A stretch of 64,000 nucleotides of DNA, from positions 1-64,000 of the IMG/VR virus record IMGVR_UViG_3300032087_002150, one strand, 5' to 3'. The DNA comes from a virus. The position numbers were made by a program, and so were the translations under genes. Below are positions 41,337 to 54,456 of this stretch, piece after piece. The notes under the pieces were generated by a model. It made no database searches and was not told the DNA's origin. It saw nothing but the letters and a program-made list of their open reading frames with translations. Position 1 is the first letter of the stretch. Every line of letters begins with the position of its first letter.

Positions 41337-41398
41337 ATTATGCTTGAAACGGGTATCAAAGTAAAGTCTAAAAAACTTTAGGAAAATCAATAACTTAG
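41337..41398 (-). promoter_or_regulatory. Composite promoter element, copy 4
   Basis: Minus strand: AAGTTATTGATTTT and AGTTTTTTAG block, TTTACT (41360-41365), 17-nt spacer, CATAAT (41337-41342). The stop of the methylase at 41395 lies in the block. Confidence 0.8.
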
Positions 41399-42243
41399 GA
41401 ATACAGCAGAATCTCCCTCGCCTTTTTCGCTTCATAACCTTCTTCAGTTTTCTTTCTCCTGCCAGCAGTGTAGGTTACAGGAAAATATTTGTACGACAAC
41501 TTTCCGCATTTGTCTTCAAACCAGTTGTCGTCAGCACGATTACTGTGATATGTGATCGGTTTATCTTGACAGAAATCAATCAGTTCTAGGCATTGGTCAT
41601 CAGTAAACGCATTACCATAATCAGCAATGCTGTTTCGATAAGGCGGATCGAAGAAAAAATAACAACCTTCACTTGCTTTTTCGGCACATTGTTTCCAGTC
41701 AACGGACGAGAACTCGGCAATCTTTAGTGCATCATGCCACCAAGATAGATCTCCTCTGTTATAGATTGAGTCTGTTTGATTTAATAAACCACTAGGTGTG
41801 CCATAACGACCATTGGTGTTTTTGTTGATCTGGAAGATACCGTTAAACCCAGTCTTCATAAGAAAATACAAAGTCGCTGATTCTTCAACATCATTCCACT
41901 TCTCGTAATCCCAAGCATGCTCCTCTCGTACATCGTAATAAAACTTCTTACGATCTTCTTTGTCCAGTGGAAGATACTTTGCTTCCAGCGAATCTAAACG
42001 GAAAGTGAACTCAGACAAGTTGTCTCTGATTGATGTGTAGATCCTAACGATATCTGGATTGATATCATTCAAAAATGCTTTTTTGATTGGATAGTTTGAC
42101 ATAGCATGTATGAACATTGCACCACCACCAAAAAATGGTTCGCAATATTCAGTCGGAGGATCAATACGAGAAGGAAGGAGAGGCAGATAATGCCTCAACA
42201 TTTTGTTCTTACCACCTGCCCATATAAACAACGGTTTAGGCAC
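41395..42243 (-). CDS. D12-class adenine DNA methyltransferase
   Basis: 282 aa. FIWAGGKNKML (SAM-binding start), CEPFFGGGAMFIHAM (motif I) and YFFFDPPYRNSIADYG (DPPY, motif IV) define a Dam-like N6-adenine methylase. It overlaps the EcoRI-like nuclease by 8 nt, so the two form a candidate restriction-modification pair. Type II partners of EcoRI-family nucleases are not usually D12 class, so specificity is uncertain. A second D12 gene is at 53590. Confidence 0.92.
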   Translation of the reverse strand: MPKPLFIWAGGKNKMLRHYLPLLPSRIDPPTEYCEPFFGGGAMFIHAMSNYPIKKAFLNDINPDIVRIYTSIRDNLSEFTFRLDSLEAKYLPLDKEDRKKFYYDVREEHAWDYEKWNDVEESATLYFLMKTGFNGIFQINKNTNGRYGTPSGLLNQTDSIYNRGDLSWWHDALKIAEFSSVDWKQCAEKASEGCYFFFDPPYRNSIADYGNAFTDDQCLELIDFCQDKPITYHSNRADDNWFEDKCGKLSYKYFPVTYTAGRRKKTEEGYEAKKAREILLYS

Positions 42244-42754
42244 TTACATACTCCAAAACTTCACGCATAATCTTCTCCACCTCTTCATTATTATATCCAT
42301 CTTCGCTGAGATAGCAAGAGTTTTTATTTTCCACAAACTTATTGAATCCATCAAGGTGTGCAACATTAAGCGTTTTTTCTAAGACGTGATCTGGTCGAGC
42401 ACCCTCCCCACTACAGAAAGTCACATAACAAACATCGGGATTGATCAGTCGACAAATGTAATTGTTTTTGAACCATCTTTCTATGGCATTACCGCCAGTC
42501 CCCTGCTTTTTCGCTTCGAAGACAGCAACAACTTTTCCATCTCGCAACCAAACGCCACCGTCAGGTTCACAGGCACCTTTATTACCAGGGATTTGATCTT
42601 TGGTAAGTTTGCGCTGAAGTTGTAGGGCAGGAAACTCTTCCGCGAGTTTATCCTTTAGTGTTTTACATTGTTCGTCTAACTTACGAGCAGCTGCATCAGT
42701 AGCGCACATTCCTTTCTGAATACCGCCACGAAAACCATTTTCCCTTTGACTCAT
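42236..42754 (-). CDS. EcoRI-like restriction endonuclease
   Basis: 172 aa versus 277 in EcoRI. EPDGGVWLRDGKVVAVFEAKKQGTGGNAIER (in two parts: PDGG at 64-67, EAK at 80-82, GNAIER at 88-93) reproduces the catalytic D...ExK core of EcoRI, and GNAIER corresponds to the segment that reads GAATTC in EcoRI. The intervening loops are much shorter. Alternatives are a diverged relative with new specificity or an inactive form. Sits directly above a DNA methylase, with a composite promoter upstream. Confidence 0.82.
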   Translation of the reverse strand: MSQRENGFRGGIQKGMCATDAAARKLDEQCKTLKDKLAEEFPALQLQRKLTKDQIPGNKGACEPDGGVWLRDGKVVAVFEAKKQGTGGNAIERWFKNNYICRLINPDVCYVTFCSGEGARPDHVLEKTLNVAHLDGFNKFVENKNSCYLSEDGYNNEEVEKIMREVLEYVSA

Positions 42755-42789: not shown

Positions 42790-42852
42790 ATTATACTCGC
42801 AAGTTAATGGAATAGCAAACAAAAGAAACTATAGTTAAATCAATAACTTACG
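42790..42852 (-). promoter_or_regulatory. Composite promoter element, copy 5
   Basis: Minus strand: AAGTTATTGATTTA and AGTTTCTTTTG block, TTGCTA (42813-42818), 17-nt spacer, TATAAT (42790-42795). The stop of the micro-protein gene at 42848 lies inside the block. It would drive the candidate restriction-modification pair. Confidence 0.8.
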
Positions 42853-53130: not shown

Positions 53131-53606
53131 TATCTATCTGCCTTAAAACCAAAGGAACAACCAACACGAGGTTCAGTCAATGTAACAACTTCATGTATCG
53201 TGTTCGCAGGAAAGTAAATCGCGTCATTTTCAGAGAGTTTATACTTCATTCCATCTATTTCCCATACTGTCGAACCAACACACTGTATGTATAAAATATC
53301 AGTCTCATCAGAGTGTGCGCCAAATCCAACGAAGTCTGTATCGTAGGCGACATAGAAGTGCGCATCACAGTGAGGAGAATGCGTAGCACTCATTATCTGA
53401 GCACAGAATCGTTTAACGGATTCAGTCGTAATGTAAGCAGTCTGACTACAGTAACCGTGATCGTACAGTTTTATGTTATCAACCGAACGAGCGTAGGTAG
53501 CATCTGCTTCAGCGTCTTCGAGTGTAATGTTCAGATCGTAAAAGTTCGGGAGATATATTACTTCTTCGTTGCGTATCGCAGTTTGTAGATCAAGTGAGAA
53601 GTTCAT
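53130..53606 (-). CDS. Cupin/JmjC-like putative dioxygenase, 158 aa
   Basis: FGAHSDETDILYIQCVGSTVWEI holds HxD plus the following strand, and FPANTIHEVVTLTEPRVGCSFGF the distal His and Arg of a 2-oxoglutarate-type site. The same layout as the gene at 15021. Overlaps a DNA methylase by 17 nt. Substrate unknown. Confidence 0.76.
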   Translation of the reverse strand: MNFSLDLQTAIRNEEVIYLPNFYDLNITLEDAEADATYARSVDNIKLYDHGYCSQTAYITTESVKRFCAQIMSATHSPHCDAHFYVAYDTDFVGFGAHSDETDILYIQCVGSTVWEIDGMKYKLSENDAIYFPANTIHEVVTLTEPRVGCSFGFKADR

Positions 53607-54456
53607 AGTTCCTCAACAGGAGTTCCTTACGATTCTTTTCATCCTCGCGATAGTTCTTACCTGAATGTAGTGTGTAGGTCAGATCAAAGGTGTGTTGCTG
53701 CCAGTCATGATACATTGTTTTCAGCAACTCATTGTTATCGTAGGAGATCATCATGTTAGATTTACAGTAAGAAACCTGCGTATGAAACTCCACGTGATCG
53801 AAGTTCTTATGCATGTCACCGTTACGACCGTACAGGAACGATGTACCGTCCTTTCCTACTTTCGCATAGGGTGGATCGAGATAGATAAACGTGTTAGGAT
53901 CATCAATGAGACAGTCAGAGTAGTCAACGTTGGTAATCTTCCAGTTCTTGATATGCTCTCCGTAAAGTAACAGCGAGCGAATGTTATTCTCACTGAAGTT
54001 TGATACGGATGCCTGCTCACTGAAACCTGATGATTCACCCAGACCTGAGAAGGAACACTTGTTACATACCCACCAGCGCCAACCAATATCAAACTTATTG
54101 TTCCATGGTTGACCGCAATCTATTTTCAGTAAATATGCCTTACAGTCCTCGAACAGTTTACGATGACCCACTGCGTCCCTCGCGTCACTTTTGACCTTCA
54201 GAAGCGTTTCTACGAGGTCTGAGGGAGAGTCACGGAGTGTAATCCAGAAGCAATATAGGTTATAATACTTGTCATTGATGTGAATAGGAACGTGAGGGAA
54301 CTGACGTGAAAAGGCGAATGCCATTGACCCGCCACCCACGAAAGGTTCAACGTATTTTCCTATCAGAGAGTTAGGCAGGAACTGAAGCAACGTCTTGGTT
54401 GCTCGAGACTTCCCGCCCATGTATCGAATCGGAGTTTTTAGTTTTCTCGGTAGCAT
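53590..54456 (-). CDS. D12-class adenine DNA methyltransferase (Dam-like)
   Basis: 288 aa. PIRYMGGKSRATKTLL, VEPFVGGGSMAFAFS and FIYLDPPYAKVGKDG are the three main D12 motifs. Closest in style to T4/cyanophage Dam-like methylases, here without an adjacent nuclease. It may protect the phage genome from host or self restriction. A near-perfect promoter lies at the start codon. Confidence 0.94.
   Translation of the reverse strand: MLPRKLKTPIRYMGGKSRATKTLLQFLPNSLIGKYVEPFVGGGSMAFAFSRQFPHVPIHINDKYYNLYCFWITLRDSPSDLVETLLKVKSDARDAVGHRKLFEDCKAYLLKIDCGQPWNNKFDIGWRWWVCNKCSFSGLGESSGFSEQASVSNFSENNIRSLLLYGEHIKNWKITNVDYSDCLIDDPNTFIYLDPPYAKVGKDGTSFLYGRNGDMHKNFDHVEFHTQVSYCKSNMMISYDNNELLKTMYHDWQQHTFDLTYTLHSGKNYREDEKNRKELLLRNYELLT

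Follow-up and report, generated by a model that had tools for sequence, protein, structure and literature searches.

Virus-encoded restriction–modification (R-M) systems are already known. Chloroviruses carry R-M pairs with recognition sites of 2–4 bp, whose nucleases are thought to degrade host DNA at an early stage of infection (PMC7019647). For a GATC-specific restriction endonuclease and methyltransferase pair of Marseillevirus, a role as a weapon directed at competitors has been proposed (PMC7253447). By analogy, the chlorovirus systems may be regarded as a functional precedent for the phage locus described here, and the Marseillevirus pair as a competitor-directed version of it. As with CviAII and CviJI of chloroviruses, the locus contains adjacent endonuclease and methylase genes, and it shares with Marseillevirus the presence of both enzymes in a viral genome. 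However, chloroviruses are algal viruses and not phages, and their nuclease is packaged; Marseilleviruses are amoebal giant viruses and their pair is directed at GATC. No chlorovirus relatives were present among the matches of our searches, which were aimed elsewhere.

The enzyme MluCI cleaves AATT. A relationship between MluCI, EcoRI, and MunI has been considered possible, and in EcoRI itself, residues Asn141, Ala142, and Arg145 of the GNAIER element contact AATT, while the relaxed enzyme cleaves N/AATTN (PMC4081073). Gp11 of S-CREM2, which belongs to the same protein family as the nuclease studied here (phrog_2400), already carries the database annotation "restriction endonuclease EcoRI". 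The passages located in the S-CREM2 paper mention the methylase only and leave the nuclease undiscussed (PMC10665884), and we found no description of a site, role, or partner for gp11 or phrog_2400. The literature searched likewise yielded no paper containing both terms, AATT and cyanophage.

Here, we propose, with a probability of roughly 0.82, that this nuclease and its neighboring methylase form a compact type II R-M module of virulent phages that cuts AATT, the activities of both enzymes being predicted. As far as our searches show, the new elements are a compact branch of EcoRI, its probable AATT site, the exchange of nucleases at the locus, and a phage clade free of AATT.

A compact relative of EcoRI

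The window, i.e., the whole stretch of DNA analyzed, comprises the first 64 kb of a virus record of 151,660 bp. The original prediction had described a nuclease of 172 residues with the PDGG, ExK, and GNAIER motifs of EcoRI, overlapping a D12 adenine methylase by 8 nt and preceded by its own promoter. The nuclease ORF is indeed present at 42236–42754 on the minus strand and encodes 172 aa. On the same strand, PDGG is formed by residues 64–67 (42554–42565), the E-A-K motif contains Glu80 and Lys82 (42509–42517), and GNAIER covers residues 88–93 (42476–42493). Asp65, the predicted catalytic aspartate, is equivalent to Asp91 of EcoRI, Glu80 and Lys82 to Glu111 and Lys113, and GNAIER to residues 140–145, the AATT-reading element. 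On the 5' side of the gene, a sigma-70-like promoter, TTGCTA-17-TATAAT (42790–42818, minus strand), is a pattern match at 10 of 12 positions and is correctly placed, with a second match (9/12) overlapping it. Since seven such matches occur in the region and 4.3 are expected, the promoter can be considered plausible only.

The protein belongs to phrog_2400 (E 2.6e-63), a family filed under "unknown function", and has no significant match in Pfam or NCBIfam. The EcoRI profile PF02963 detected nothing at E ≤ 1 in the single protein, and for this reason we term the nuclease "EcoRI-like", a divergent branch outside PF02963. Searches of the PDB by phmmer and hmmsearch gave no useful match, and PADLOC returned only a marginal restriction endonuclease match. 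In an alignment of 29 homologues with about 20–60% identity to the window nuclease, Asp65, Gly66, Gly67, Glu80, Lys82, Asn89, Ala90, Glu92, and Arg93 are invariant. A chance resemblance to the EcoRI motifs is ruled out by this conservation.

Comparison of the nuclease family profile with EcoRI and two plasmid relatives by hhalign gave a probability of 97.7% and an E-value of 2.2e-12, in an alignment spanning family positions 26–173, most of the phage protein. Against EcoRI alone, the values were 96% and 2e-9. The EcoRI reference sequence used is exact relative to PDB entries over residues 90–157 and 99.6% identical to plasmid records over its full length. This profile homology, together with the PD-(D/E)XK active-site motifs, agrees with the predicted kinship and indicates that the phage nuclease is a true, distant homologue of EcoRI.

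The PDGG...ExK active site and the GNAxER recognition helix follow each other in the same order in both proteins. In contrast, EcoRI has 277 aa and the members of the phage family have 172–196 aa. Between EAKxQ and GNAIER, EcoRI has approximately 20 residues where the phage proteins have two or three, a deletion by which the DNA-wrapping arm is missing from the phage nuclease. The AlphaFold2 model (pLDDT 89) shows the α-β-β-α-β order typical of PD-(D/E)XK enzymes. A Foldseek search of the PDB with two nuclease models returned nothing at E ≤ 0.001; the top matches, all with E > 0.001, include the PD-(D/E)XK enzymes BbvCI, McrC, EcoT38I, and XPF/Hef, and EcoRI is not among the best 50 matches listed. 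In the BFVD, the nuclease model matches a viral PD-(D/E)XK protein with an E-value of 3.5e-4.

A D12 methylase linked to the nuclease

The methylase gene (41395–42243, minus strand) has a GTG start and encodes a D12-class N6-adenine DNA methyltransferase of 282 aa. Residues 199–202 (41638–41649, minus strand) form a DPPY motif, the motif IV of N6-adenine methylases. The predicted class is borne out by PF02086 (E 3.3e-29; 102.8 bits with a cut-off of 22), the nearest solved structure is DpnM (2dpm), and the protein also scores above the cut-off for the Dam subfamily model TIGR00571. The stop of the nuclease gene and the start of the methylase gene overlap by the expected 8 nt (42236–42243, minus strand), which suggests translational coupling. 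The D12 class had been considered an unusual partner for EcoRI-family nucleases. This is correct for EcoRI, paired with an EcoRI_methylase (PF13651), and for an Acinetobacter homologue, paired with an N6_N4_Mtase, but an EcoRI-family enzyme of Paracoccus has a D12 partner, as does the phage nuclease.

Among 22 IMG/VR loci in which the nuclease was found, 19 also contain the same methylase, either directly downstream or beyond an inserted ORF, and homologous pairs are co-located in dozens of phages, including the cultured Synechococcus phages S-RIM2 and S-BM1. A query with the methylase only retrieved divergent nucleases with PDGG, ExK, and GNAxER motifs, most of them directly upstream of the methylase. 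Furthermore, the pairwise distances of the two proteins are correlated (Mantel r 0.60, p 0.001), showing that they co-diverge, and in one locus (L021), nuclease and methylase are fused into one ORF of 470 aa. No bacterial relatives were found in GTDB representative genomes at the sensitivity used.

In S-CREM2 (OR473000.1, 3837–7623), the gene cluster around the EcoRI-like nuclease includes a pyrimidine-dimer glycosylase, a SAM hydrolase, and a D12 methylase, the last showing only 30% identity. ORFs inserted between nuclease and methylase are found in NC_020859.1 (40451–41506), L026 (1578–2504), L005, L010, L012, L013, L014, L020, and L210. They encode about 300–350 aa and are of several unrelated-looking kinds, mostly with DGQH/GNHT-like motifs and a resemblance to ParB/DGQHR proteins, one having a weak match to DUF6551. 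The insertion is present in some S-RIM2 isolates and absent in others. The window contains a second D12 methylase (53590–54456, minus strand), which shares 22% identity with the first and 45% with one of Phage C48C1.

Depletion of AATT in nuclease carriers

Expected site frequencies were derived from synonymous-codon shuffles, which keep protein sequence and codon usage fixed. The observed/expected ratio of AATT has a median of 0.20 (0.00–0.72) in the 16 de-duplicated nuclease carriers and of 0.83 (0.72–0.91) in eight cyanophages without the nuclease. Among 136 tetramer classes, AATT is the best discriminator between the groups (p 2.7e-6, a value that overstates the evidence because carriers are phylogenetically non-independent), the next class reaching 7e-4. 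Codon or composition bias was rejected as the source of the loss, given the synonymous shuffles and the clean separation of the groups by AATT alone.

The sharpest control for nuclease-linked AATT loss is provided by phages that share the host Synechococcus WH7803. The carriers S-RIM2 and S-BM1 have ratios of 0.18 and 0.16, versus 0.90 in S-PM2, 0.87 in S-RIM8, 0.75 in S-CAM1, and 0.72 in S-SKS1, all without the nuclease. This division bears on the alternative that AATT is avoided as a result of restriction by the host, with the pair being incidental or serving another function and the methylase acting in counter-defence. Phages do widely avoid host restriction sites (PMC6286503), and almost every cyanophage in the comparison, with or without the nuclease, is depleted in AGCT, GGCC, and CCGG. 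However, the WH7803 phages, which share one host strain, divide by nuclease presence. Moreover, AATT is near expectation in G020 and G024, which have the methylase and no close nuclease, and in G030, where only a distant match to the second predicted nuclease family described below was found. Counter-defence would also leave the conserved nuclease active site unexplained, and we consider this alternative unlikely.

Every NAATTN class is depleted in carriers; the flanks are therefore immaterial. The original prediction had pointed to GAATTC or GATC as the target, i.e., to a nuclease specific for GAATTC with a Dam-like methylase acting on GATC or GAATTC. Although the GNAIER and PDGG motifs are those of EcoRI and the methylase passes the Dam model, GAATTC decreases only in step with the other NAATTN hexamers, GATC in the window is at expectation (260 observed, 240 expected), and a clade of carriers described below has lost AATT in every flank context. 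A GAATTC or GATC target is thus very unlikely. GAATTC itself occurs seven times in the window (12092, 20601, 24942, 25145, 35628, 39608, and 40533); at least six sites had been reported, with two of the six coordinates off by 1 and 10 nt.

The target of the nuclease is, judging from these patterns and from the conserved motifs, very probably AATT with any flanks. As it lacks the DNA-embracing arm, the enzyme would read only the central AATT, through GNAIER. A minimal EcoRI relative of 172 aa bears on the reduction of AATT recognition in the EcoRI group to its core.

Depletion varies among carriers. One phage with an intact pair (G045/L210) is scarcely depleted (0.71), and ratios among the more divergent members of the nuclease family range from 0.21 to 0.95, so that the sites of these members may differ. 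Two methylase-positive genomes with a weak or no nuclease match show mild depletion (0.52 and 0.58). The stretches sampled from G016 and G039, which carry divergent EcoRI-like nucleases, contain essentially no GATC, and a different specificity of these enzymes is possible. In the first 30 kb of S-RIM8 (NC_020486.1), GATC occurs 13 times versus about 101–106 expected, unlike in other WH7803 phages.

A second predicted nuclease family upstream of the methylase

The same methylase also follows, in many other phages, an ORF of another kind, about 290 aa in length. This family has a conserved DG...E.K...GAS motif and no match in Pfam, and we regard it as a second predicted nuclease. It is found upstream of the methylase in L053 (1635–2501), L038, L063, L075, L085, L089, and L102. 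Both this family and a divergent EcoRI-like nuclease are present in L039, L041, and L103.

Carriers of the second predicted nuclease have AATT ratios of 0.08–0.48, and methylase-bearing genomes without a clear nuclease are mostly not depleted. In the one strong outlier, G040 (0.16), an ORF of the second family was found elsewhere in the genome; G030, with a distant homologue of this family, shows no depletion (0.87). Our first comparison was based on Markov ratios, with methylase-positive genomes pooled into the controls. AATT did not stand out in it, since a large share of these controls have the second predicted nuclease and show AATT depletion of their own. The regrouping by nuclease presence was made post hoc, after this result, as was the grouping by second family, and the group test and the search in G040 came later. 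The findings suggest that R-M serves as an offensive module of virulent phages, in which nucleases can be exchanged behind one methylase.

A clade of carriers free of AATT

Three contigs, G001 (73,883 bp), G002 (111,864 bp), and G003 (89,959 bp), each contain an intact nuclease. No methylase was detected on them by protein search or with PF02086, PF01555, PF02384, and PF13651. AATT is completely absent from all three, whereas 259, 395, and 327 sites, respectively, are expected in coding sequence. By contrast, the methylase-bearing G042 retains 42 AATT sites in 80 kb. Relative to G002, identity is 99.9% for G003 and 86% for G001; the three therefore represent one clade, which counts as a single case. 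CCGG is also absent from these contigs, as in the sampled stretches of most cyanophages compared, with or without the nuclease.

The contigs may be fragments, and a methylase may lie off the contig. We give even odds to restriction without modification, in which the nuclease of this clade is predicted to be active and the absence of AATT would itself mark self from non-self; having a genome without AATT, the clade would be immune to its own nuclease. Carriers in which no methylase was found and from which the site has been purged constitute a natural experiment.

The clade also bears on a further alternative, that the pair is a selfish element maintained by addiction through post-segregational killing and not a weapon. 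R-M pairs can act as selfish elements (PMC4081073), and the pair is found in phages as unrelated as the window phage and members of the Kyanoviridae. However, in virulent phages there would be no segregating cell lineage on which addiction could act, and purging of the site in the methylase-less clade would take away the threat to the carrier, making this alternative highly improbable.

Proposed mechanism

The computed homology, gene linkage, co-divergence, fusion, conserved catalytic residues, and nuclease-tied site depletion uphold the earlier view of a phage R-M pair in need of self-protection, with the activity being predicted from sequence. We infer that the pair cleaves and methylates AATT, both enzymes acting at one site, and that it has a role in infection. 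In the R-M reading, the nuclease would cut unmodified AATT in the host chromosome or in the DNA of rival phages during infection, and phage DNA would be spared by modification of an adenine in AATT by the D12 methylase. Residual self-damage, plausibly caused by incomplete methylation during fast replication, would select against AATT in carriers, and in the lineage without a detected methylase, the site would have been lost entirely. For phrog_2400, which includes proteins of cultured Synechococcus phages, this would provide a probable function and a testable site.

AATT in the window phage

The UvsX of the window phage is closest to that of Phage C48C1 (77%), followed by Acidovorax phage ACP17 and Stenotrophomonas phage DLP_6; by this marker, the window phage is therefore no close relative of the pair-carrying Synechococcus phages. 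Its AATT content is moderately depleted, with 110 sites versus 308 expected (0.36). No EcoRI-like nuclease was found in C48C1, the nearest relative identified without it, where the ratio is 0.63 (p 2e-6 for the difference); this contrast is smaller than that among cyanophages. Within the window, the ratio is 0.21 in the half that bears the pair (32001–64000) versus 0.47 in positions 1–32000. More recently acquired genes perhaps account for the AATT-richer part, in which a local peak of 23 AATT sites is located at 4–8 kb.
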